64,000 nt of DNA from an uncultured SAR86 cluster bacterium. GTDB taxonomy: Bacteria; Pseudomonadota; Gammaproteobacteria; Magnimaribacterales; AG-339-G14. Shown in pieces: positions 19,787 to 44,404 of the stretch; position 1 is the first letter of the stretch; the number at the start of each line of letters is the position of its first letter. Under the pieces are notes generated by a model that had not been told where the DNA came from, did no database searches, and saw nothing but the letters and a program-made list of their open reading frames with translations. The DNA is taken from positions 1 to 64,000 of the forward strand of contig CACMKG010000003.1 of assembly GCA_902614235.1 (NCBI GenBank), read 5' to 3'. Position numbers and translations under genes: made by a program.

Positions 19787-20637
19787 TGAAAGTTATCAAA
19801 AAAATTGACGATTTAAAAATTATTAATAAAAAAAGGCCAATTGCTTTAATTCCAACTATGGGAAATTTACATGAAGGTCATCTAAGTTTAGTCAAACAAT
19901 CAATTAACTTGCAGTTAAGTCCTTTAGTAACTATTTTTGTAAATCCTCTTCAGTTCGGTCCTAATGAAGATTTTGAAACATACCCTAGAACGATCAAGCA
20001 AGACAAAGAAAGTCTTGAAAAACAAAAATGTGAGTTTCTGTTTCTTCCAGAAAAATCGGAAATATTAGAAGGCATAAAAAAATTAAAAGCTCCATATTCA
20101 AATTTTTTATGTGGAAAGAAAAGACCTGGGCATTTTGATGGGGTAATAACGATAGTGAATCGCTTTTTTGAGTTAATAAAACCAGAATATTGTTTTTTTG
20201 GGCAAAAGGATTTTCAACAACAACTAATTATCCATAATCATTTAAAAGAGAATAAGCTATCTACAAAATTAGTTATTGGTGAAACAGTCCGAGATGCAAA
20301 TGGACTTGCGCTGTCATCTCGAAATAATTATTTAACTCAAAGTGAACAAAAAGATGCGTCAATTATTTATAAGTATCTACAAGAAATAGCTGATCAACTG
20401 AGACAAGTTCGTTCCGATTCTTCAAAAGACCTTTCAATGAGCGCTCTGATGGTTTGTGAAGAATATAAAAAAAAATTTGAAGATAAAGGTTTTGAAATTG
20501 ATTACTTGGAAATTATCAATGCCAAAAACTTAGAACAATCCAAGAAAGACGATACCGATTTGCTCATTGCAATTGCGACTCACTTTAAAGGAGTAAGATT
20601 GATAGATAACTTGCCATGTGATTTATCTTTTTCTTAG
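19786..20637 (+). CDS. panC: Pantothenate synthetase
   Basis: PanC joins pantoate and beta-alanine with ATP through a pantoyl-adenylate. The 283 residues are typical. The nucleotidyltransferase HIGH-type motif appears as PTMGNLHEGHLSLV near residue 25. Further family pieces are TIFVNPLQFGPNEDF, RPGHFDGVITIVNRFF, FFGQKDFQQ and LALSSRNNYL with the KMSKS-like region. The start codon is GTG, sharing one base with the panB stop. The 3' end overlaps the convergent acyltransferase gene by 15 bases. Confidence 0.96.
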   Translation: MKVIKKIDDLKIINKKRPIALIPTMGNLHEGHLSLVKQSINLQLSPLVTIFVNPLQFGPNEDFETYPRTIKQDKESLEKQKCEFLFLPEKSEILEGIKKLKAPYSNFLCGKKRPGHFDGVITIVNRFFELIKPEYCFFGQKDFQQQLIIHNHLKENKLSTKLVIGETVRDANGLALSSRNNYLTQSEQKDASIIYKYLQEIADQLRQVRSDSSKDLSMSALMVCEEYKKKFEDKGFEIDYLEIINAKNLEQSKKDDTDLLIAIATHFKGVRLIDNLPCDLSFS

Positions 20638-21513
20638 CAAGTTATTAGGATAAAAAGATTCCTCGCCGTCGGGTCTATTTTTAAATCGTCTATGCGGCCA
20701 TAGATAATTATCTGGATTTTTTCTAATAAACTCCTCTATTTCAAAGTTTATAGTTCTCAAATCATCTTCTAAATTTTTTCCTAATACGTTTAATTTTTTA
20801 AAATTTGCAAAATATTTTTGATCCTTTTTTTCTAGCGAAAACATGTAGACATCGCAATTAGTTCTTCTAACAGCAATGTAAGGAAATTTTACCGTTAATG
20901 CCTTATTTCCAAAGAAGTTAACAAAGATAGAATTTTTAAAGCCATAATCTTGATCAGGCGCATATAAACAAGCTTTACCTTTTTTTAAAAAATCCATAAG
21001 CTCGAGAATTTCTCTGGGACTGAAGATTCTTTCTGCAAATTTTTCTCTACTTGATACAAATAGGTTATCAACAATTTTATTCTTCTGTTTTTTAGCCATA
21101 CCTGAAACAGGCATGAATAAAGATGACGCCCTTACTACCAAGTCTAAGTTTGGATTGTGCATGAACAATAAAAGCTTCCCTTTTGAGTTGTCCATGTCAG
21201 AACATTCGTTATAAACATCGTCGAAATTAACTATTAATTTTTTCAGTTTCCTGTTGGACATCCAAGATGCATTTAAAAATTCAAATAAAGCCTCACCAAG
21301 TCTGTAAAAACTTTCTTTCAAAATTAAATTAATTTCTGTTGAGTTTTTTTCAGGAAAACATTTTTTTAAATTCCATCTAGCAATTTCTTTTCTTTCTCTC
21401 GAAAGCGAAAAAAAAACGAAACCTAGAAATTTTCCCAAAAGAAACTGAAGTCTTCTAGGGAGCAAATTGAGAATTTTCAGTACAAAGAAAATTAAGTATT
21501 CTATTAATTTCAT
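20623..21513 (-). CDS. LpxL/HtrB-family lipid A acyltransferase
   Basis: This is a membrane-bound lysophospholipid acyltransferase family enzyme that adds a secondary acyl chain to lipid A precursors on the inner face of the inner membrane. It has 296 residues. A hydrophobic N-terminal anchor (YLIFFVLKILNLLP) is followed by the arginine-rich RERKEIARWNLKKCFP typical of HtrB, the catalytic HX4D as HNPNLD (His119-Asp124) and YAPDQDYGFKNSIFVNFFG, another conserved block. It is divergent from waaA, which makes the Kdo-lipid A acceptor, so the two form a lipid A pair. Lauroyl or myristoyl specificity cannot be told. Confidence 0.9.
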   Translation of the reverse strand: MKLIEYLIFFVLKILNLLPRRLQFLLGKFLGFVFFSLSRERKEIARWNLKKCFPEKNSTEINLILKESFYRLGEALFEFLNASWMSNRKLKKLIVNFDDVYNECSDMDNSKGKLLLFMHNPNLDLVVRASSLFMPVSGMAKKQKNKIVDNLFVSSREKFAERIFSPREILELMDFLKKGKACLYAPDQDYGFKNSIFVNFFGNKALTVKFPYIAVRRTNCDVYMFSLEKKDQKYFANFKKLNVLGKNLEDDLRTINFEIEEFIRKNPDNYLWPHRRFKNRPDGEESFYPNNLLRKR

Positions 21514-21574
21514 TATTGCCGTTTATAAAACTGTATATTTATAACATTATCCTATTTAGTCTAGAATCACCCTA

Positions 21575-22840
21575 ATGATCTTTTTTTATAATTTATTAAC
21601 TTTTTTTTACCTGCCTATTGCTCTAATAAAATTATTTTATAAAAAGAATTTTTCTTTTGAAGAATTTAAAAGAATATTAGAGAGATTTGGACAATTCAAA
21701 CTCTCTGGATTTGATCACAATAAGAAAACTTTTTGGTTGCATGCCGTATCAGTTGGTGAAGTTAATACCTCAATCGATTTAATTAAAAAATTAAAAAAAA
21801 TATTCCCTAACGCTAATATTCTTGTAACCACGACAACAAAGACAGGTTCAAATAGATTAAAGCAAATTTTTAAAGAAGAAGTTTTTCATCAATACTTGCC
21901 TTTTGATATTGTTTATTTCGTAAATAAATTTTTGCGCTTCTGGAAGCCAGATTGTTTAATTTTAATTGAAACAGAAATTTGGCCAAATTTAATCTTTCAA
22001 TGTTCCAATAAAAAAATTCCTGTTCTTTTGTTAAATGGTCGTCTTTCAACTAAATCTCTAACTAACTACCAAAAACTAGAAAATTTATCTAAAAAAACTT
22101 TTTCCAAAATAGATATGATCATCGCTCAAACAGATCAAGATAAAGAAAATTTCAGCACTCTTGGAGCAAATCTAAATAATATTCATGTTGATTCTTCGCT
22201 AAAATTTGATGCTCTAGAGTTGAATTCATTAGAAAGTACATTCTCTTACGATAAAAATTTGATTGAAGAAAAGAAAATAATTACCTGTGCTAGCACTCAC
22301 CCAACAGAAGATGAAATTTTGTTTGAAAGTTTTCAGATTCTAAATGACGAATCGACGCATTTAGTTTTGGTTCCTAGACATCCGGAAAGAGCTATTGAGA
22401 TATCAAAATTTCTGTTTAAAGAGGATGTCTCTTTTGCTTTATTAAACAACAACGATACTAAATTTTTAGATCTCAATAACAAAGTGACCATTGTAAATGA
22501 AATTGGACACCTGAATTTTCTTTATTCAATTTCGCGTCTTGCTTTTATTGGTGGAACACTCATAGAGCATGGAGGCCAAAATTTTTTAGAGCCAGTAAAG
22601 CATGGTATCCCAATTTCTTCAGGAGATAGCGTTTACAATTTCCAAGAAATTGCCGATAAATTACTTGAATTGAATATTTTAAAATATGGAAATAATGCAA
22701 AAGAAATTGCGTTGATTTGGAATGCAGCCCTTGAAACAGAAAATACTGAATTAATAAAAGAAAAAAGTGTTAGATATATTGCTTCTCAACAAGGCTCAGT
22801 AAATAGATCAGTTAAAAAAATAATGAGATTTATAAATTAG
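21575..22840 (+). CDS. waaA: 3-deoxy-D-manno-octulosonic acid transferase
   Basis: WaaA (KdtA) adds Kdo to lipid IVA, starting the LPS core. It is a GT30 enzyme of 421 residues with an N-terminal membrane anchor (FFYNLLTFFYLPIALI) and RFGQFK, the catalytic-region WLHAVSVGEVNTSIDLI, VTTTTKTGSNRLK, LIETEIWPNLI and, in the C-terminal CMP-Kdo half, LVPRHPERA, FIGGTLIEHGGQNFLEP. The fit is complete along the length. It is transcribed away from the LpxL-type gene across a 61-base AT-rich spacer. Confidence 0.96.
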   Translation: MIFFYNLLTFFYLPIALIKLFYKKNFSFEEFKRILERFGQFKLSGFDHNKKTFWLHAVSVGEVNTSIDLIKKLKKIFPNANILVTTTTKTGSNRLKQIFKEEVFHQYLPFDIVYFVNKFLRFWKPDCLILIETEIWPNLIFQCSNKKIPVLLLNGRLSTKSLTNYQKLENLSKKTFSKIDMIIAQTDQDKENFSTLGANLNNIHVDSSLKFDALELNSLESTFSYDKNLIEEKKIITCASTHPTEDEILFESFQILNDESTHLVLVPRHPERAIEISKFLFKEDVSFALLNNNDTKFLDLNNKVTIVNEIGHLNFLYSISRLAFIGGTLIEHGGQNFLEPVKHGIPISSGDSVYNFQEIADKLLELNILKYGNNAKEIALIWNAALETENTELIKEKSVRYIASQQGSVNRSVKKIMRFIN

Positions 22841-34994: not shown

Positions 34995-35648
34995 CTACGG
35001 CTTCTTAGTTATAACCTTACTTCTTCTTTTTGGAAAAAGACTGGTGCAAATTTGACACTCTAAGCCATAACATTTTCTGGCCAAACAGAATTCACGACCA
35101 TAAAAAATAATTTGCAAATGCAAATCACCCCAATTTTCTTTTGGAAAAAGTTCTTTTAAGTCTTTTTCAGTTTGTTCTACGCTTTTTCCATTGCTAAGTT
35201 TCCAACGTTGCGCTAATCGATGAATATGGGTATCAACCGCGAAAGCAGGATAGCCAAAAGCTTGATTAACTACAACTGAAGCAGTCTTATGACCTACTCC
35301 AGGAAGAGTAACAAGTTCTTCAATTGTTTTCGGTACCTTAGAACCGAATTTTTCAATCAGTATTTTAGATGTTTCGTAAATTGCTTTTGATTTTTTTGGA
35401 GCCAAACCGCAAGTTTTAATATACTTGTGAATTTTCTTTATCCCTAAAGCGTGCATCTTTTTTGGAGTGTTGGCTACTTTGAAAAGTTCTTTGGTGACAA
35501 TGTTCACTCTTTCATCTGTGCATTGAGCACTCAAGAGGACTGCTATTAAAAGTGTAAAAGGGTTCGAAAACTTAAGCGGTGGTTTTGGATTTTTGTAAAG
35601 TTTTTCTAATTCTTTCTTTATAAAGATAGCTCTTTCTTTTTTATTCAT
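34995..35648 (-). CDS. nth: Endonuclease III (DNA glycosylase/AP lyase) with unusual iron-sulfur loop
   Basis: Nth removes oxidised pyrimidines and cleaves AP sites. It has 217 residues. The helix-hairpin-helix is LPGVGHKTASVVVNQAFG with catalytic Lys121, and the catalytic Asp is Asp139 in FAVDTHIHRLAQRW. The [4Fe-4S] loop is odd: cysteines at 188, 193, 198 and 201 give C-x4-C-x4-C-x2-C, whereas E. coli Nth has C-x6-C-x2-C-x5-C. Four cysteines are kept, so a cluster is still likely. The C-terminus then ends in a basic tail (KRRSKVITKK). Confidence 0.93.
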   Translation of the reverse strand: MNKKERAIFIKKELEKLYKNPKPPLKFSNPFTLLIAVLLSAQCTDERVNIVTKELFKVANTPKKMHALGIKKIHKYIKTCGLAPKKSKAIYETSKILIEKFGSKVPKTIEELVTLPGVGHKTASVVVNQAFGYPAFAVDTHIHRLAQRWKLSNGKSVEQTEKDLKELFPKENWGDLHLQIIFYGREFCLARKCYGLECQICTSLFPKRRSKVITKKP

Positions 35649-35778: not shown

Positions 35779-35807
35779 TTGTCATATAAAAAAAGCTAGG
35801 GTATTAT
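35779..35807 (+). promoter_or_regulatory. Promoter candidate of the first TonB-dependent receptor
   Basis: TTGTCA (35779-35784) and TATTAT (35802-35807) are spaced by exactly 17 bases, the best consensus promoter seen in the window. It would give a leader of about 115 bases containing a GAAGC/GCTTC hairpin (35835-35849) and ending in a strong GGGAGGAG ribosome site. The rest of the 280-base gap from 35649 to 35928 shows no gene. Confidence 0.55.
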
Positions 35808-35928
35808 CGAAAATAAGGGGAGACATATACACTCGAAGCAGGACGCTTCAGCCTTTCAATAGTCAATGGATTGAGAAATAGAAAGTTTGTTTCTAGAACA
35901 ATTCATTTGTACCAATTGGGAGGAGTCA

Positions 35929-38900
35929 ATGAATCGATTTATTAAATATTGCTTGGCAGTAGCCGTGGCGCTTGGATTTCAAGTACCTGCGTTTGCCCAA
36001 GCTTCGCTTGAAGAAGTAATTGTTACGGCACAACGTACCGAACAGAGTCTACAAGACGTTCCGATTGCGGTAACCGCTTTATCTGCGGACGATCTTGTAG
36101 AGAAACAAGTTGTAACTTTTTCAGATCTTCAATTAAACGTGCCAAGTTTACAATTTGGACAAGGCCAGTACGCTGATTCATCAATCAGTTTGAGAGGTAT
36201 CGGGGCTTTAGCAGTTGGTTTGTCTTACGACGGATCAGTCAGTTATCACCTTAATGAGATACCAATTCCAACTTCTGCAATTGGTGATGAAAATTTTGAT
36301 ACTGCGCGTATAGAGATTTTAAGGGGTCCGCAAGGAACTCTGTTTGGAAGAGGATCTACTGGTGGTGCTGTGAACGTTGTTTCAGCGATGCCAGATTTCG
36401 ATGAGCAATATGGAAGAGCAAAAATAACTGCTGGTAATTACAACACGCAAAAATTTGAAGGGATGTTCAACATGCCAATTAACGAGAATCTAGCAGTGCG
36501 TTTTGCAGGTTATGGCTTGAAAAGAGATGGTTACATCGATAATCTCTTCATGCCTGATACGCATTACGATAACCGAGATCAAGGTGCGGGCAGAATGACC
36601 CTAGCTTGGCAAGACGGTGATACCAGTGCTTCTCTAATGTACCAACAGTACAACGAAAATTCTCACCGTTCTAGAAAAGGTGATTACATTTGTACTACCA
36701 GTCCTACTCCCGATCGTGGTTGTGTCTTAGGTGGCACAGGCAAAGATATGCCAAACCCAGCTGGAACTTACGATGGAATGATTGGAGCTTATTTATTAGG
36801 AATAGCACCAAGAGGTGGAAATTATCAAAAATACATTGATTTGGGTTTATTGAGTGGAAGTGCCATTCGTCCAACTGGGATGAACAGGCAACAAACGCAC
36901 TCAGACTTTGAGCCTACTTGGGAGACCGATGCTGAAACAGTGATCTTCGAAATTGCGCATCAATTGGATGCCGGTGAACTTTCACTTTCCTATGCAACTT
37001 ACGACAGTTTCCACAAATCTAGAGCCGATACCGATATGACGGTTGGTCCTAGAGTTGGTTGTGTAATCGATGCAAACGGAACTATTGGTGTTAACGATGG
37101 TACAAGCTGTGTTTCAGCTGCTTCGAATGCTACTGCTGGTAATGTGATCATGTACGATCTAGTCAACGGTGGCCAAAGAGGAGTTTACGGTCCTACTATT
37201 GCTGAAGAAAATTACGGTGGAAGTATGACTGGGTTCACTGGAATTTATCAACAAAAATACATTTTACAATCTGGAAAAAGAACTACGTTCATTAACGGTA
37301 ACGTAGGAGAAGGTCAAACTAGATACACCGAAGCAAAATTTGCTTCAGACTTTGCTGGACCGCACAACTTCCTATTGGGTGTTAATTACATGGAGCAAGA
37401 ATCCGTTGGTAGATTTTTAACTGCGAGCTCGCCACTAACTATGTTAGGTGCAGCGGCAGCTTACTACTTACCAACTTTTGGTCCGAGCACAGAGTTTTCT
37501 ATGCAAGCACTTGGAGTATTTGGTGAGTACTACTATCAAATCAACGACGACATGAAGCTTACAATTGGAGCCAGATGGGCCGATGAAACTAAAGATTTAG
37601 ATTCTATAGATGCTTCTTATTTAACAGCAGTTGACTATGCGGGAATCCCATATAGTGCTGCGGCTTTCAATGTTGGTGGTGCTTTAAGAGCTGATAACAC
37701 AGTAGCAGCTGATCAAGCTTTCTTAGTGGATTACGCAGTTCATAACGGTATTTTGAACTTTGCTGTTTTAGAAAATGAAGGAACTGATGTTGCTTCTCAA
37801 ACATTAGTAGCTGGTATGAAAGCTGGTTTAGCTAGTGGTGCAGCTGCTGTTATATCTACTCGAGAAGCAATCGATCGAGAAGAAGCAAGAACTGGTGTCG
37901 ATTACGATGCTGCTATTAATAGTGCTACTCAGGCCTATGTAGTTGGTTGGAACACGATTGTAGATAATTTTACTGCTAATGGAGATGCCGCAAGAACGGC
38001 TGCAATAGCTCAGGGATATGAAGTGGTTCTTGGCAAAACTATTGCCAGTGCTACAGCTGCTGAAAAAGCTGCTGCAGATAGATCTTTCGCAAGAGTTGCT
38101 AATTTAGCTAACTATGTTTCCTTGGTGAAAGCTGCCGGTGCCGTGCCATCAATGCAGGCTGTTGATAGTGGTTACCTAAACAAAGGTTGGCCTTCATATC
38201 AACAAGATAAGTTTGACTATGAAACAGTAGCCGGACGTGTGGTTTTTGACTGGCAATATGATGACAATTCATTGTTTTATGCTTCTTATGCTAGAGGTGT
38301 GAAACCAGGTGGAATTAACTCTTCGGCAAGTCCTAGAACCTTTAAGCCTTGTGCAGCGGGTAGTTCAGGTGGAGTGGCTTGGGCTGCAGGACCAGCGGCA
38401 ACTTGTGTAGATATACCTCCTCAAACTGATGAGGAAGTTGCTGATACGTTTGAAGTTGGTGTGAAAACAGACCTTATGGATGGTCAGTTGAGATTAAATG
38501 CGACAGCATTCTTTACGGACTACACCGATTTCCAGATTGCTTCAACAATCAACGCTTCAGAGTATAACTTCAACTCGGACGCGGAAATTACAGGTGCTGA
38601 AATTGAGTTAACTTATTTGCCAGAAGCATTCCCTAACTTAAGAATAGACTTCATGGCTAACTTCTTGGATACAGAGATTCAAACTCAAGTGAAAAAGTTG
38701 AATCCATTTAACAAATTAGCGATTGGAATGCCTGAAGATATTTCGGCGACGCACGCTATGGTTAGTTGTACGGTCATTATCTTTGATGGAACGGATGCTT
38801 GTATTGGTACTCGATTCATCGTGAAGAAATCTGACCTAGACGCTGAGTTAGCAGCTGGTACCTACACAAATGGTAACCAAGCCACTATGACTGCAGCGCA

Positions 38901-39417
38901 AATGTGGGTAATGGATTTGGGTACTCTTAATGCTAACGGTACTGCAGCAACTTACCCATCTTATGGTGATCGTAACTTCTATGATGCTACTTCAACAACC
39001 GCTGCTATGGGATCAATGGGAATTGAAACCATACAGGGTGCTTTAGTTAGTATTGACGGTAACTCACTACCGCAAGCTCCAGAGGAGTCATTCAACCTAG
39101 CTTTCTCATACAATTACGCAATGGGCAATGGTACAACATTGATACCTACTGCTAGTTTTTACTACCAGAGTGAAATGTTTAACTCAGAGTTCAACTCGAC
39201 CCTGTCGGATCAAATTGATTCTTGGGAAGAAGTTAACTTGGGCTTAACTGTTATTCCAGCGCAAGGTGATTGGGTTGCTAGACTTTACGTTAGAAACGCA
39301 ACTGACGAAGACAACGTAACGACTAAATTTAATTCAACGGATATTACTGGTAACTACCAAACTTGGCAGTACCGTGATCCAAGAACGGTTGGACTAGAAC
39401 TAACAATGGATTTCTAA
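35929..39417 (+). CDS. Large TonB-dependent outer-membrane receptor, copy 1
   Basis: This is a 22-stranded-barrel type transporter powered by TonB-ExbBD. It has 1162 residues, far longer than the usual 700-900. The signal peptide ends at FQVPAFAQA; the TonB box region is LEEVIVTAQRTEQSLQDVPI; the plug has IEILRGPQGTLFGRGSTGGAVNVV. The barrel ends in the classic C-terminal Phe (TVGLELTMDF). Large extracellular loops carry Cys pairs (ICTTSPTPDRGC; CVIDANGTIGVNDGTSC). I use the ATG at 35929 behind GGGAGGAG; a reading from 35887 would place 14 residues before the signal peptide. The substrate is unknown. A paralogue follows. Confidence 0.92.
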   Translation: MNRFIKYCLAVAVALGFQVPAFAQASLEEVIVTAQRTEQSLQDVPIAVTALSADDLVEKQVVTFSDLQLNVPSLQFGQGQYADSSISLRGIGALAVGLSYDGSVSYHLNEIPIPTSAIGDENFDTARIEILRGPQGTLFGRGSTGGAVNVVSAMPDFDEQYGRAKITAGNYNTQKFEGMFNMPINENLAVRFAGYGLKRDGYIDNLFMPDTHYDNRDQGAGRMTLAWQDGDTSASLMYQQYNENSHRSRKGDYICTTSPTPDRGCVLGGTGKDMPNPAGTYDGMIGAYLLGIAPRGGNYQKYIDLGLLSGSAIRPTGMNRQQTHSDFEPTWETDAETVIFEIAHQLDAGELSLSYATYDSFHKSRADTDMTVGPRVGCVIDANGTIGVNDGTSCVSAASNATAGNVIMYDLVNGGQRGVYGPTIAEENYGGSMTGFTGIYQQKYILQSGKRTTFINGNVGEGQTRYTEAKFASDFAGPHNFLLGVNYMEQESVGRFLTASSPLTMLGAAAAYYLPTFGPSTEFSMQALGVFGEYYYQINDDMKLTIGARWADETKDLDSIDASYLTAVDYAGIPYSAAAFNVGGALRADNTVAADQAFLVDYAVHNGILNFAVLENEGTDVASQTLVAGMKAGLASGAAAVISTREAIDREEARTGVDYDAAINSATQAYVVGWNTIVDNFTANGDAARTAAIAQGYEVVLGKTIASATAAEKAAADRSFARVANLANYVSLVKAAGAVPSMQAVDSGYLNKGWPSYQQDKFDYETVAGRVVFDWQYDDNSLFYASYARGVKPGGINSSASPRTFKPCAAGSSGGVAWAAGPAATCVDIPPQTDEEVADTFEVGVKTDLMDGQLRLNATAFFTDYTDFQIASTINASEYNFNSDAEITGAEIELTYLPEAFPNLRIDFMANFLDTEIQTQVKKLNPFNKLAIGMPEDISATHAMVSCTVIIFDGTDACIGTRFIVKKSDLDAELAAGTYTNGNQATMTAAQMWVMDLGTLNANGTAATYPSYGDRNFYDATSTTAAMGSMGIETIQGALVSIDGNSLPQAPEESFNLAFSYNYAMGNGTTLIPTASFYYQSEMFNSEFNSTLSDQIDSWEEVNLGLTVIPAQGDWVARLYVRNATDEDNVTTKFNSTDITGNYQTWQYRDPRTVGLELTMDF

Positions 39418-39431
39418 TCTATTATCGGTTT

Positions 39432-39464
39432 AAAAAAACCCCCGTTTTGACGGGGGTTTTTTTT
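39432..39464 (+). terminator. Rho-independent terminator after receptor copy 1
   Basis: A perfect stem of A7-C5-G with C-G5-T7 closes a short TTTTGA-type loop and runs into eight T. The A-tract on the left makes it work in both orientations. It begins 14 bases after the stop codon, so copy 1 is a single-gene transcript. Confidence 0.9.
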
Positions 39465-39561
39465 GGCAACTGAAAGTTTTTTTAGTAATATAAAAATATA
39501 CGACACAATGTCTGACGATTTTGCTTCTCCATTACTATACTTTTTGTTTATATAACCTAAA

Positions 39562-39668
39562 GGGGAGAGTTTTAAATAGAGTAATCTGTTTATCCAGACC
39601 GATTTCAAACTACTGAAACTAAAAATTCACGTAATTCTCCTCGATATTTAATACTCAGGGAGGAGTAC
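39562..39668 (+). promoter_or_regulatory. Leader region of receptor copy 2 with possible ribosome-site hairpin
   Basis: The region opens with GGGGAGA (39562-39568), which also occurs at 35817-35823 in the copy 1 leader at nearly the same distance from the start codon (107 versus 112 bases). CTCCTC (39637-39642) can pair with GAGGAG (39660-39665), the Shine-Dalgarno, which would mask translation. Upstream, CTGACG (39512-39517) and TATACT (39536-39541) with 18-base spacing are a possible promoter. Nothing else is visible in the 251-base gap. Confidence 0.35.
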
Positions 39669-42600
39669 ATGAATAAATTAATCAAACTTTCTATAACTAG
39701 TGCATTAGTTTTTGGCTTTCAAGTTCCTGCTTTTGCTCAAGCTTCATTAGAAGAAGTAATTGTTACTGCGCAACGTACTGAGCAAAGTTTACAGGATGTA
39801 CCGATTGCGGTTACGGCTTTATCAAGTGACGATTTAGATACTAAGCAAGTAATAACATTTTCAGACTTGCAGTTGAACGTGCCAGGATTGAATTTTGGAC
39901 AAACATATTTCGGTGGATCTTCAATCAGCATTCGTGGAATAGGTAATCTTTCCACAGGTGATTCGTTTGATGGCTCCGTGTCTTATCACATTAATGATGG
40001 AACAATTAATACTTCCGGAATTGGAGTTGAAAATTATGACGTAGAAAGAATAGAGATTCTTAGGGGTCCACAAGGAACTCTTTTTGGACGAGGAACTACA
40101 GCTGGATCGGTTAACGTAATTAACAACAAAGCGGAACTTGGTGAAGATTACGGGAGAATTAAAGTCACAGCAGGTAATTATAATACTCAGAAATTAGAAT
40201 ACATGGCAAACCTATCGATTACTGATCAGTTGTCTGCAAGATTTGCTGGGTATGCACTTCAAAGAGATGGTTACATCGATAATTTATTTTTACCCGACAC
40301 TGGTTATGACGGTCGTGACCAAAATTCTGCTCGTCTTTCCTTAGCCTGGGAAAATGATCAAACAAGAATTGATTTTAATCATGAAGTCTATAACGAAGAC
40401 AGTACGAGAGCTCTGAGAGGAGATTATATTTGTGAAAATAGTCCTACACCCGATCGTGGTTGTGTTTTTGGAGGACAAAAAATGGAACAAGCTAACCCAG
40501 CGGGAACTTATGATGGAATCATCGCAGCTGCTTTATTAGGTATTGCTCCAGCTGGTGCGAACATTGATGCTTACATAGCATCTGGCTTGCTTTCAAGTGC
40601 TGATAACTCAATAAGACCTGCCAATATGCAAAGGGGACAAACTCATGTAGATTTTGTTCCAATTTGGGAAGTTGATTCTGACTTAACTCAATTACTTATT
40701 TCTCATGATCTTGATGTAGGCACGTTATCTTTTAACGCCACTTTGCAAAATACCAATTATTACAATAGGGCTGATACCGACATGTCTGTCGGCCCAAGAA
40801 TTGGTTGTAAAAATGCTGCAGGTAATGTTGTGGTAAACGACGGATCGGGTGTTTGTGCAAGTGCTACTGATAATGCCTCTGGTGGAGTCTTTAATCTAAT
40901 GAATATTGCTGTCGGTGGCTATAGAGGGGTCAGAGGGCCAACTATTGCTGAAGAAATTGCTGGTAATTTATCGGTTTTAGAACAAGATAAATACCTTTTA
41001 GTCAAAAATAAAAACAGAACAGCTTTTATCGACGGTAACACTGGCGAAAGGCAAACTCGTTATTACGAAATGAAGTTCAATTCTGATTTTGATGGCCCGC
41101 ATAATTTTTTACTTGGAGTAAACTCTTTTGAAATTGAATCCACTGCTAGATATTTAACAGCAAGCTCGCCTTTATCAATGTTGGCACCAGCGGCGAGTTA
41201 CTACCCTAGAACTTTTGGAACAGCGGGTGCATATGACCTAAATGCGATTGGGGTATTCGGTGAGTATTACTATCAAATCAATGCTGATATGAAATTAACT
41301 GTTGGTGCTAGGTGGGCTGATGAAGAGAAAAATATTGATACTTTTAGGTCAACTTATAATATGGGTAGAGACTATAATAGCGGTGCTTACGGTGCTCAAT
41401 TAGCAGCAATTGGTCAAGCCAACTTCGGGTGGCCAACCAATGGTGATGCTTATTTAGTTCATGCATCTCTGACCTCTTGTGTTCCGTCAGCTTCTGGAAT
41501 TGCGGGTTTATCTGCCGGCGGAAACTTTTGTAACGAATCTGCTAACGAAGTTCTACAAGCTATGAAGGACATTGACGGAACTGATATTACAGCTGCCTTG
41601 AACACTCAAGCTGCTACTTATGTAACAGCTGCTACAGCTTCCGCTGCTGCAACTGCTGCTGCAACAGCTGCTGCAACTGCCTTAGCTGCAGATCCAACGA
41701 ACAATGCTTTAATAGCTGCTGACGCAGCTGCGACTGCTGCTGCAACAGCTGCTACGACTGCTGCTGCAGGAGCGATGCTTACTTCTGTAACTACACTTTC
41801 TACGGTTCGTTCAATGTACGTAGCAGATCTAGATTATCGTAAAAATGGGTGGCCAGCTTTGAATACTGATAAATTCGACTATGAAACAGTCTCTGGTCGT
41901 GTGGTCTTTGATTGGCAGTACGATGATAATTCAATGTTATATGCGTCTTACTCAAAAGGAGTTAAGCCTGCTGGTGTGAACCCGGCTTACAACCCAAGAA
42001 TCTACAGACCTTGTTCGGCTGGATCTTCGGGTGGTAAAGCTTGGGTTGCCGGTGATGCTGCGTCTTGTATTGATATTCCTTCTAAAACAGAAGAGGAAGA
42101 ATCGGATACTTTTGAAGTGGGTGTGAAAACCGACTTAATGGATGGTCAACTAAGGCTTAATGCTTCAGCATATTTCACTGATTATACTAACTTGCAGTTG
42201 GCTTCAGTAATTGCAGCAACAACCTATAACTTTAATTCAGATGCTGAAATTATGGGTGCCGAATTAGAATTGGCTTACTTACCAGATTGGGATAATAATT
42301 TAAGATTTGATCTTATGTTTTCTTTTATCGATTCTGAAATAACTTCTGATGATTCAAGGTTGAACCCGTTCAACAAATTAGCTATTGGAACAAATGCTCC
42401 TTCTAACGATTATCACTTAATGAGATGTACGGCTCTTTTATATGATGCTACGGCAGCATGTATCGGAACAGCTTTTTTAGTTAAAAAAGCAGACCTTAAT
42501 ACAGCCTTGGCAGCAATTGGTACAGCAAATGAGAGCATTCCAGCTGCTGATTGGATTGGTGGTTTAGGGCAAATTACAGGCCTACCAAATGCAGCAGGAG

Positions 42601-43076
42601 CGACAGCTACAGTAACTAGTTACCCATTTTATGGTGACCGTAACAAGTTTGATATTGCTGGAACTGCAGGTTTGTATAATATTCCGACGTTTGTTGGATT
42701 AAACTCTCCTATTAAAGGCAATGAGTTACCACAAACTCCTGAAACAGCGATTAACCTTACAGCTACTTATCAAGTCAATTTAGGTAATGGCGACTTTTTA
42801 GTTCCAACATTAACTTATTACTATCAAAGCGATATGTTCTCGACAGAATATAATGTTGTAGCGACAGATACGATTGAGTCTTGGGACGAAATTAACTTAG
42901 GACTGCTTTATGTTCCGGCGCAAGGTGACTGGACTATAAAAGCTTACGCTAGGAATGTTACTGATGAAGACAACGTGACTACTAAGTACAATTCCACTGA
43001 TATCACCGGAAGTTTTCAAACTTGGCAATATCGTGAACCTAGAACTGTTGGTATCGAACTAACTATGGATTTCTAA
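39669..43076 (+). CDS. Large TonB-dependent outer-membrane receptor, copy 2
   Basis: This is a paralogue of the preceding gene, 1135 residues. The signal peptide ends FQVPAFAQA, followed by a 27-residue TonB-box/plug segment identical in protein sequence to copy 1. IEILRGPQGTLFGRGTTAGSVNVI marks the plug and TVGIELTMDF ends the barrel. Cys-bearing loops recur (ICENSPTPDRGC; CKNAAGNVVVNDGSGVC; RPCSAGSSGG). A low-complexity Ala/Thr run lies at about residues 648-702. Start is the ATG behind GGGAGGAG. The two genes arose by an old duplication. Such receptors in oligotrophs import polymers, lipids or chelates; the substrate here is unknown. Confidence 0.92.
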   Translation: MNKLIKLSITSALVFGFQVPAFAQASLEEVIVTAQRTEQSLQDVPIAVTALSSDDLDTKQVITFSDLQLNVPGLNFGQTYFGGSSISIRGIGNLSTGDSFDGSVSYHINDGTINTSGIGVENYDVERIEILRGPQGTLFGRGTTAGSVNVINNKAELGEDYGRIKVTAGNYNTQKLEYMANLSITDQLSARFAGYALQRDGYIDNLFLPDTGYDGRDQNSARLSLAWENDQTRIDFNHEVYNEDSTRALRGDYICENSPTPDRGCVFGGQKMEQANPAGTYDGIIAAALLGIAPAGANIDAYIASGLLSSADNSIRPANMQRGQTHVDFVPIWEVDSDLTQLLISHDLDVGTLSFNATLQNTNYYNRADTDMSVGPRIGCKNAAGNVVVNDGSGVCASATDNASGGVFNLMNIAVGGYRGVRGPTIAEEIAGNLSVLEQDKYLLVKNKNRTAFIDGNTGERQTRYYEMKFNSDFDGPHNFLLGVNSFEIESTARYLTASSPLSMLAPAASYYPRTFGTAGAYDLNAIGVFGEYYYQINADMKLTVGARWADEEKNIDTFRSTYNMGRDYNSGAYGAQLAAIGQANFGWPTNGDAYLVHASLTSCVPSASGIAGLSAGGNFCNESANEVLQAMKDIDGTDITAALNTQAATYVTAATASAAATAAATAAATALAADPTNNALIAADAAATAAATAATTAAAGAMLTSVTTLSTVRSMYVADLDYRKNGWPALNTDKFDYETVSGRVVFDWQYDDNSMLYASYSKGVKPAGVNPAYNPRIYRPCSAGSSGGKAWVAGDAASCIDIPSKTEEEESDTFEVGVKTDLMDGQLRLNASAYFTDYTNLQLASVIAATTYNFNSDAEIMGAELELAYLPDWDNNLRFDLMFSFIDSEITSDDSRLNPFNKLAIGTNAPSNDYHLMRCTALLYDATAACIGTAFLVKKADLNTALAAIGTANESIPAADWIGGLGQITGLPNAAGATATVTSYPFYGDRNKFDIAGTAGLYNIPTFVGLNSPIKGNELPQTPETAINLTATYQVNLGNGDFLVPTLTYYYQSDMFSTEYNVVATDTIESWDEINLGLLYVPAQGDWTIKAYARNVTDEDNVTTKYNSTDITGSFQTWQYREPRTVGIELTMDF
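41611..41775 (+). repeat. GCT/GCA/ACT triplet-rich low-complexity tract inside receptor copy 2
   Basis: An imperfect triplet array built from gct, gca, gcg, aca and act codons encodes an almost pure Ala/Thr segment, broken by LAADPTNNALIAADA. It resembles replication-slippage expansion. The frame is kept throughout. Copy 1 has a milder Ala-rich, more complex segment at the equivalent place. Confidence 0.85.
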
Positions 43077-43094: not shown

Positions 43095-43122
43095 AAAAAG
43101 CCCTGTTTCGACAGGGCTTTTT
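43095..43122 (+). terminator. Rho-independent terminator after receptor copy 2
   Basis: A perfect 12-bp stem, AAAAAGCCCTGT with ACAGGGCTTTTT, encloses a TTCG tetraloop and starts 18 bases after the stop codon. It separates the receptor from the thiolase gene. Confidence 0.9.
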
Positions 43123-43210: not shown

Positions 43211-44404
43211 ATGAAAACAGCAGTAATAGTAGATAGCGTCCGAACTGGATTAGCTAAATCTTTTAGGGGAGGATTTAACCAAACTCGTGCCGATGATATG
43301 ACCGCACACCTAGTAAACGCCTTACTAGAAAGAAATCCTGGGCTAGACCCAGCGTTAGTTGAAGATATGATTTTAGGTTGTGGGGCACCAGAAGGAGCAC
43401 AAGGCCACAACGTTGCAAGAAACGCAGCAGTACTATCAAACCTTCCAATCGAAGTTGGCGGTACTACAGTCAATCGATACTGTTCTTCAGGGTTACAAAC
43501 CGTTGCCATGGCAGCTACCCAAGTACAAAGTGGATTTTCTGATTGCATTATTGCCGGTGGAGTGGAGTCGATAAGCACCACGCAAGGCAATACTAACATG
43601 CACATGTATGTGAATGATAAGTTAGCTGCGGACGTGCCTGGTATTTACCACGCCATGGGTCAAACAGCAGAATGTGTTGCTAAACGTTACGATGTCACTA
43701 GAGAAGCACAAGACGAATATGCACTTTCTAGCCAATTAAGAACAGCAGCTGCTCAAGAGGCGGGACTTTATGCTGATGAAATTGTTCCAATGGACACAGT
43801 AATGAAATTAGTCAATAAAGAATCTGGTGAAGAAAAAGATGTCGAAGTGACAGTTGATAAAGACGATTGCAATCGTCCTGAAACTACAATTGAAGGTCTG
43901 CAGTCTTTGAAACCAGTTTTTGATCCTGAAAATGGATCTGTGACTGCAGGAAACTCTTCTCAACTTTCAGACGGCGCATCTGTTACATTGGTTATGAGTG
44001 AAGACAAGGCAAAGGAACTTGGACTTACGCCAAAACTCTATTTTAGAGGTTTCACAGTTGTAGGCTGCCAGCCAGATGAAATGGGCATTGGTCCAGTTTA
44101 TTCTATTCCTAAGTTGTTAAAATCAGCAGGCTTATCAATCGAAGACATTGATTTATGGGAATTAAACGAAGCCTTCGCTTCTCAGGTTGTCTACATTAGA
44201 GATCAGCTCAAATTGCCTAGCGACAAACTAAATGTGAACGGCGGTTCAATATCTATTGGACATCCATTTGGCATGACTGGTTCTAGACAAGTTGGACACT
44301 TAGCCAGAGAGTTAAATCGAAGAGACGGCAAATACGGCATCGTCACTATGTGTGTTGGTGGTGGTATGGGTGCAACTGGACTCTTCGAAGCTTACAAAGC
44401 TTAA
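43211..44404 (+). CDS. Thiolase (acetyl-CoA acetyltransferase / 3-ketoacyl-CoA thiolase)
   Basis: This thiolase of 397 residues catalyses reversible Claisen condensation or cleavage of acyl-CoAs. The nucleophile is Cys91 in VNRYCSSGLQ. The other catalytic motifs are NGGSISIGHPFGMTGSRQ (His) and CVGGGMGATGLFEAY (second Cys). WELNEAFASQ (the NEAF motif) is also present. A good ribosome site (AGGAG) stands eight bases before the ATG. A single free-standing gene without fadB beside it gives no clear hint between beta-oxidation and biosynthetic use. Like the receptors it uses more C-ending codons than the neighbouring minus-strand genes, perhaps reflecting high expression. Confidence 0.92.
   Translation: MKTAVIVDSVRTGLAKSFRGGFNQTRADDMTAHLVNALLERNPGLDPALVEDMILGCGAPEGAQGHNVARNAAVLSNLPIEVGGTTVNRYCSSGLQTVAMAATQVQSGFSDCIIAGGVESISTTQGNTNMHMYVNDKLAADVPGIYHAMGQTAECVAKRYDVTREAQDEYALSSQLRTAAAQEAGLYADEIVPMDTVMKLVNKESGEEKDVEVTVDKDDCNRPETTIEGLQSLKPVFDPENGSVTAGNSSQLSDGASVTLVMSEDKAKELGLTPKLYFRGFTVVGCQPDEMGIGPVYSIPKLLKSAGLSIEDIDLWELNEAFASQVVYIRDQLKLPSDKLNVNGGSISIGHPFGMTGSRQVGHLARELNRRDGKYGIVTMCVGGGMGATGLFEAYKA

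Follow-up and report, generated by a model that had tools for sequence, protein, structure and literature searches.

What keeps two very large receptor genes side by side in a SAR86 genome, and how firmly do they belong to the place where they are found? The stretch of 64,000 nucleotides analyzed here (hereafter the window; contig CACMKG010000003.1) comes from the genome of an uncultured SAR86 cluster bacterium (G000; 1.09 Mb in 13 contigs). It carries in tandem, on the plus strand, two open reading frames (ORFs) that are predicted to encode TonB-dependent outer membrane receptors, namely receptor A (35929 to 39417, 1162 amino acids) and receptor B (39669 to 43076, 1135 amino acids, with an Ala/Thr-rich insert). 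The assignment draws on the reading frames, their alignment and the Pfam domains Plug (PF07715) and TonB_dep_Rec (PF00593), both of which score above cut-off in each protein. By reading, each protein has a hydrophobic start ending in AFAQ, an EEVIVTA box near the mature N terminus and a final Phe. SAR86 bacteria are among the most abundant bacteria of the surface ocean, they have small genomes, and receptors of this kind are a main uptake tool for them.

We think it likely that the two genes fill a fixed slot, between an nth-type gene and a thiolase gene, in which SAR86 species carry different receptors through a replacement type of exchange. The slot is variable, its surroundings are conserved, and the receptors found in it come from several lineages. 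Its left border (34995 to 35648, minus strand) is an ORF that we take to be nth-type from a reading of its protein; it adjoins the slot or its empty form in relatives and served as the comparison anchor. The right border (43211 to 44404, plus strand) is annotated as an acetyl-CoA C-acyltransferase (thiolase) of 397 amino acids.

A variable slot between conserved borders

The contrast between the slot and its flanks was measured against four relatives (G019, G020, G021, and G022), with 47 other genes of the window as the control. Between G000 and G019, these 47 genes have a median proportion of synonymous differences (pS) of 0.19 (range, 0.07 to 0.48) and a median identity of 0.97, while the slot has a pS of 0.70 to 0.71 and an identity of 0.56 to 0.59. 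At the DNA level, G000 and G019 align at ∼94% without interruption over 35.65 kb to the left and 21.1 kb to the right, and the alignment breaks in the slot alone. Divergence from G019 is also raised at the borders: among the 47 genes, pS peaks in nth (0.48), whose first 100 codons (pS 0.51) exceed all 148 background windows, and the first 100 codons of the thiolase gene (pS 0.36) are equaled or exceeded by 9 of the 148. Against G022 the flanks stand at 0.42 and the slot at 0.71 to 0.73, and against G020 pS is uninformative, since the flanks themselves are near saturation (median, 0.66). G021 is about as distant in its flanks as G019 (pS 0.23), and the values of 0.30 for A and 0.11 for B indicate that the same receptors are present there.

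What the slot holds differs from genome to genome. We searched 40 genomes of the family, and 33 have both borders on one contig; occupancy was not counted for the other seven (G003, G004, G010, G024, G025, G028, and G035). Two long receptors fill the slot in 10 of the 33 and one in 15, and the remaining eight slots, all in genus g3, are empty, with 124 to 126 bases between the matches to the border genes. The receptors in family slots fall into two classes, class I (EEVIVTAQRTEQSLQDVPIAV and similar; genera g1 and g4) and class II (EEVTVTAxR...; genera g1 and g2), and these are combined in several ways: G019 and G020 have a class II gene followed by a class I gene, a pair of A-type copies is found in G018, a single receptor occurs in each of G022 and G017, and class II stands alone in G017 and in G023, which has two. 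The sequence-only reading had proposed a paired uptake system, but A and B occur together in only two of eight genomes of the genus (G000 and G021).

As a separate observation, seven g3 genomes carry two or three long receptors together elsewhere (L052 to L056, L065, and L066), beside an ORF of 679 residues. In G012, the g3 genome that was annotated, the product of this ORF belongs to the prolyl oligopeptidase family, and a gene of the carboxylesterase family stands between receptors.

Beyond the family, we chose 28 genomes, 22 of the 25 with a receptor match plus six without one, and both borders share a contig in 24 (G048, G071, G111, and G118 are uncounted). Nine of these junctions are empty (five were read, and four were judged by the 366 to 378 bases between the border matches), six contain a single receptor, and another five contain a receptor plus two further ORFs. 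In one more, two such ORFs are accompanied by a receptor in pieces, and the last three carry ∼13 kb of other genes and lack a receptor. One genome of each cargo kind was annotated, and the rest were assigned by like length and start. The two further ORFs in G095 are annotated as acyl-CoA dehydrogenases, and the ∼13-kb cargo of G043 includes a sulfatase, reductases, hydrolases, and an acyl-CoA dehydrogenase-type protein. Receptors outside the family were identified by BLAST, five of them also by Pfam (in G045 by the plug domain only). The receptor in pieces (G110, L161) is split over several reading frames beside two ORFs like the G095 acyl-CoA dehydrogenases and reflects either decay of the copy or a fault in the assembly. 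In none of the 57 assembled junctions (33 plus 24, four by distance only) are there more than two receptors.

Separate histories of receptors and flanks

The flank tree groups G000, G019, and G021, then adds G022, and leaves G018 and G020 outside, whereas the receptor tree puts both G018 receptors with A, and receptor A is younger relative to the first G018 receptor (synonymous divergence [dS], 0.88) than are nine flank genes (1.36 to 2.53). The test rejects a single group made up of the receptors of G000, G021, G019 (class I gene), and G022 (p 5e-81), and likewise the group without G022 (p 2e-46). The G022 receptor shifts position between trees, and these constrained groups were drawn from the flank tree after a first receptor tree had been viewed. 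Of the 47 non-slot receptors of the genus, 45 were fetched (G017 C16 and G023 C8:128626 are missing). The first receptor tree included six of the 45 and omitted the G003 receptor, which is cut by a contig end.

A wider tree of 45 receptors comprises 16 slot receptors of the family, 11 of other families (without the broken G110 copy), and 18 others, which include receptors of G111 and G118 whose non-slot place is assumed, as their borders lie on other contigs. The 27 slot receptors fall in several clades amid non-slot ones, with at least seven changes between the two states. A single clade is rejected both for all 27 (p 2e-42) and for the 16 family ones (p 7e-97).

Within genes, too, histories differ. 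Between G000 and G021, 85 of 1134 codons of B differ synonymously, and these differences leave five runs of 69 to 135 codons without synonymous change; the longest run was reached in 15 of 10,000 shuffles. In this comparison, B is a mosaic in which some segments are recent and others older. Receptor A also has clustered synonymous changes relative to G021, though more weakly than B (longest run, 43 codons; 99 of 10,000 shuffles), and the same test on 28 other genes of the window (1,000 shuffles each) gave a lowest fraction of 0.011. In G023, the leader and the coding region of the second gene differ in history, the promoter-leader having been retained through a change of receptor class: against the second gene of G020 the leader matches at 0.82 and the mature protein at 0.21, and against its own neighbor the values are 0.47 and 0.75.

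Similar decoupling is seen at other receptor loci of G000 (L091 to L096), where dS is in some cases higher and in others lower than that of the flanks. With G019, dS is 1.15 to 1.66 in four of five reciprocal best pairs (>50% identity), next to flanks at 0.36, and two neighboring receptors (L094) have dS of 0.13 and 0.07 relative to G022, with flanks at 0.66. No close match to the L094 receptors was found among the fetched G021 and G019 receptors. Receptor turnover seems to be general in these genomes, with the slot offering the clearest view of it.

The receptor proteins and their leaders

The two proteins were first singled out for their length and for a segment of 28 residues that covers the TonB box and the start of the plug (36001 to 36084 in A and 39741 to 39824 in B, both on the plus strand; located by translation and family comparison). 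Their extra length is roughly as had been claimed, ∼260 to 490 residues above the other seven of the nine plug-domain genes in G000, which encode 675 to 875 amino acids. The identity of the segment was likewise confirmed: all 28 residues are the same, with differences at 14 of 28 codons and 15 of 84 bases. The identity reaches upstream into the signal peptide (GFQVPAFAQ). The segment does not belong to this pair alone: the motif is common to related receptors, with 24 to 28 of 28 residues identical in nine class I receptors of the genus (including A and B), 21 to 23 in twelve g4 receptors, 19 to 22 in nineteen g3 receptors, and 16 in another receptor of G000. Nor is the codon pattern special. 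The same codon is used at 307 of the 632 identical residues, where 294.5 would be expected from independent draws on the codon usage of the window, and at 14 of the 28 in the segment, where 11.6 would be expected. The amino acid identity of the segment exceeds chance, and its codon difference does not.

Along the whole pair, synonymous sites are saturated (pS 0.71 overall, with lower values at residues 101 to 150, 251 to 300, 402 to 455, and 675 to 730 of A). The codons therefore mark A and B as old throughout and say nothing specific about the segment, and a dN/dS ratio of A against B, which the sequence-only reading had proposed as a check, is unmeasurable for the same reason. Its view that the split is old is supported in these synonymous terms, as is purifying selection on the segment. 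Divergence is uneven, as it had also expected, but in amino acids only: 632 of 1124 aligned residues are identical overall, 20 of 24 at the C-terminal end, and 24 to 34% by window at positions 556 to 730 of the first gene, and the proportion of nonsynonymous differences (pN) is 0.13 and 0.07 in the first and last windows and 0.53 to 0.58 in the middle. The claim that recent gene conversion is excluded holds in part, as there is no hint of it between A and B in the segment; it misleads in that B is a mosaic between G000 and G021. That A and B bind different ligands is plausible.

Between G000 and G021, amino acid variation in A is concentrated in three stretches, and pN is 0 to 0.07 in most windows of 40 codons. 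The three are residues 361 to 401 (37009 to 37131; pN 0.13 at pS 0.31), residues 602 to 729 in the long insert (37732 to 38115; pN 0.19 to 0.36), and residues 970 to 1009 (38836 to 38955; pN 0.29), all on the plus strand, and across them pS is 0.30 to 0.62. From the topology of the family, they should be outside loops, and the second is probably an extracellular loop. The long insert of B includes, at about 41580 to 41790 of the window, a low-complexity stretch rich in Ala and Thr that is predicted to be helical at low confidence.

Searches gave little further detail on either protein. The closest named record to receptor B is the SAR86 cluster isolate AG-337-G20 (97% identity in B). In the NCBIfam models of named receptor types (heme, B12, and siderophore), all listed scores are far below the curated cut-offs; sequence searches of the PDB gave distant matches alone, nearly all on the plug region and first strands; and AlphaFold models of A and B from nine-sequence alignments have a mean pLDDT (predicted local distance difference test) of 35.1 and 37.0, too low for the models to be usable. 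An Rfam scan of the window returned nothing at the gathering threshold, and in one scan of viral contigs three stretches fit a pattern, with no relative among them.

The genes also differ in what precedes them. We place the start of A at ATG 35929, as the sequence-only reading did, in preference to the TTG at 35887 given by the ORF tool; this ATG follows a GGGAGGAG site, and the leader ends in GGGAGGAGTCA before it. The region from 35779 to 35928 (plus strand) holds the leader of A and a promoter-like site (TTGTCA, 17 nucleotides, TATTAT). A promoter scan lists the site, yet it gave fewer sites overall than in shuffled sequence, so the support for the site is its conservation in relatives. The leader RNA of A (35809 to 35931) is predicted to form a hairpin that pairs the ribosome-binding site (z = −2.59; matched in stability by 2 of 200 shuffles), and it offers a lead toward a structured RNA; for the B leader, z is −0.64. 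A two-sided change occurs in four of the 26 pairs predicted for the A leader, but several pairs are lost in some sequences, with a covariation term of only −0.2. Covariation neither proves nor excludes the pairing, because both sides are nearly constant in the eight leaders. In its own genome the A leader pattern occurs once, at gene A, and the upstream region and leader of B (39519 to 39668, plus strand) are of another type, the two leaders having an identity of 0.41.

Terminator-like hairpins, recognized by eye, follow A (39439 to 39464, plus strand; a CCCCC/GGGGG stem and then a T run) and B (43100 to 43122, plus strand), although the scan tool listed neither. They disfavor an operon of A, B, and the thiolase gene, and with a leader and such a hairpin of its own for each gene, A and B probably form no operon either. 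Elsewhere in the window, a lesser peak of divergence from G019 covers a surface-related pair, the lipid A acyltransferase and Kdo transferase genes (20623 to 22840; identity, 0.81 and 0.84; pS, about 0.40).

Explanations for the slot and known systems

How could one junction come to hold such different receptors? In our preferred explanation, whole receptors would be exchanged by homologous recombination in the conserved flanks, in the leader and signal peptide region, and inside the receptor genes. The TonB box and the C terminus would stay constant because TonB and the barrel assembly machinery need them, and the variable stretches would be extracellular loops in contact with the ligand or with attackers such as phages. 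Nutrients, phages, or both are candidate drivers.

The simplest competitor is an ordinary old tandem duplication, after which other species lost different members of an ancestral array, so that no exchange is needed. A and B are indeed sister lineages within class I of the genus in our trees, and g3 shows that two or three receptors can stand together, albeit elsewhere. We nevertheless consider this account unlikely, for it requires several ancestral copies and precise losses, yet no junction holds more than two receptors; moreover, the split of A between G000 and G018 postdates that of the flanks, B is a mosaic, and the second gene of G023 joins a leader and a coding region of different history. 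The sequence-only reading offered another possibility, that A and B cooperate or take up two related ligands and are kept as a pair for that reason. The tandem receptors in 10 of 33 family slots and the differing middle regions fit such a role, but the single receptors in 15 slots, the eight empty ones, the rarity of A with B in the genus, and the separate leaders and terminator-like hairpins make it quite improbable. It is harder still to credit that the genes are hypermutable or positively selected and have evolved in place by fast substitution. Between sister species pN is raised in three stretches of A, and it exceeds pS in a few windows of B, each on 0 to 2 synonymous changes, but in no window of A. 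A high local mutation rate is disfavored because synonymous sites are saturated between G000 and G019, whereas the comparison of G000 with G021, at a similar flank distance, gives ordinary values.

Several observations count against exchange at a fixed slot. No recombination event was seen directly, and part of the pattern could stem from an older array of three or more receptors that lost different members in different species. The comparison used one genome per species, many of them incomplete. The rise in border pS is clear for G019 alone: border windows of G022 are ordinary (equaled or exceeded by 31 and 45 of 147 background windows), and in G021 the nth window is somewhat high (12 of 147) and the thiolase window low (134 of 147). 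The 45-receptor tree was built quickly and has long branches, with non-slot members picked by likeness to B or as controls. G017, whose single gene is the other case of a changed class, has a leader that matches the A-type leaders of G000 and G018 weakly (0.53 to 0.65), and since other receptors are also decoupled from their flanks, the slot is not the sole place of exchange. Diversifying selection on A is unsupported, as pN exceeds pS in no window, and relaxed and diversifying selection are therefore indistinguishable. A lipid- or acyl-like ligand is our guess from the acyl-CoA dehydrogenases in the slots of some relatives, the bordering thiolase gene, and the carboxylesterase between g3 receptors; the thiolase gene is a weak clue, since it also adjoins empty slots.

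Exchange at a fixed slot remains the explanation that we favor, and it can be extended, more tentatively, to the whole order. The nth-thiolase junction may be an order-wide docking site that has repeatedly gained, lost, and swapped receptors from distinct lineages, sometimes keeping the resident promoter, a leader able to hide the ribosome-binding site, and the signal peptide. If so, an incoming receptor would be expressed at once under the old control, and streamlined genomes could change their uptake range or their phage receptors by one cassette swap. Even short of this, the slot suggests that related SAR86 bacteria exchange what their surface takes up or is attacked through. A fixed slot is also a countable handle: receptor types between two conserved genes could be scored in metagenomes and tied to nutrients, phages, or place, which would make the separation of close SAR86 species testable at one locus.

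The closest known systems are the replacement flexible genomic islands of aquatic bacteria, in which, in the accessible text, O-chain and flagellum clusters are exchanged between strains of one species (PMC4033161). Like these islands, the slot is one chromosomal place whose gene content differs among relatives, with different genes of similar function at the same position, and the parts available to us also describe a dS peak in the bordering gene (here clear for G019, partial for G021, and absent for G022), propose recombination in the flanks, and discuss phage pressure (PMC4033161). Unlike them, its cargo in the window and its relatives consists of one or two receptor genes, each with a leader of its own, the junction also occurs in an empty form, and the comparison spans species, genera, and families of one order, whereas the islands, as described in those parts, are compared within species (PMC4033161). 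In that text, "receptor" occurs twice and "outer membrane" does not occur (PMC4033161). A study of Salinibacter, as far as its accessible text goes, uses the term replacement flexible genomic island and mentions TonB receptors in islands (PMC6060240).

The Neisseria hemoglobin receptor HmbR offers a second comparison. According to the sections available, 3.9% of its codons are under diversifying selection in one gene within a species, and its variable surface loop regions, a likeness to the receptors here, are diversified by horizontal exchange and mutation (PMC3068627). In the slot, by contrast with those sections, whole receptors of different lineages alternate, and diversifying selection is unsupported (PMC3068627). 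For SAR86 itself, the available portions of two studies already establish the abundance of these receptors (PMC11582366, PMC8371827). One describes TonB-dependent transporters as abundant across the Magnimaribacterales and beta-oxidation as central to carbon metabolism; its accessible text covers transporter numbers and annotation labels, describes no fixed exchange slot, and lacks the word "hypervariable" (PMC11582366). No paper on a receptor exchange slot in SAR86 was among the matches listed in our literature search, which covered titles and abstract openings and left subscription journals mostly uncovered.

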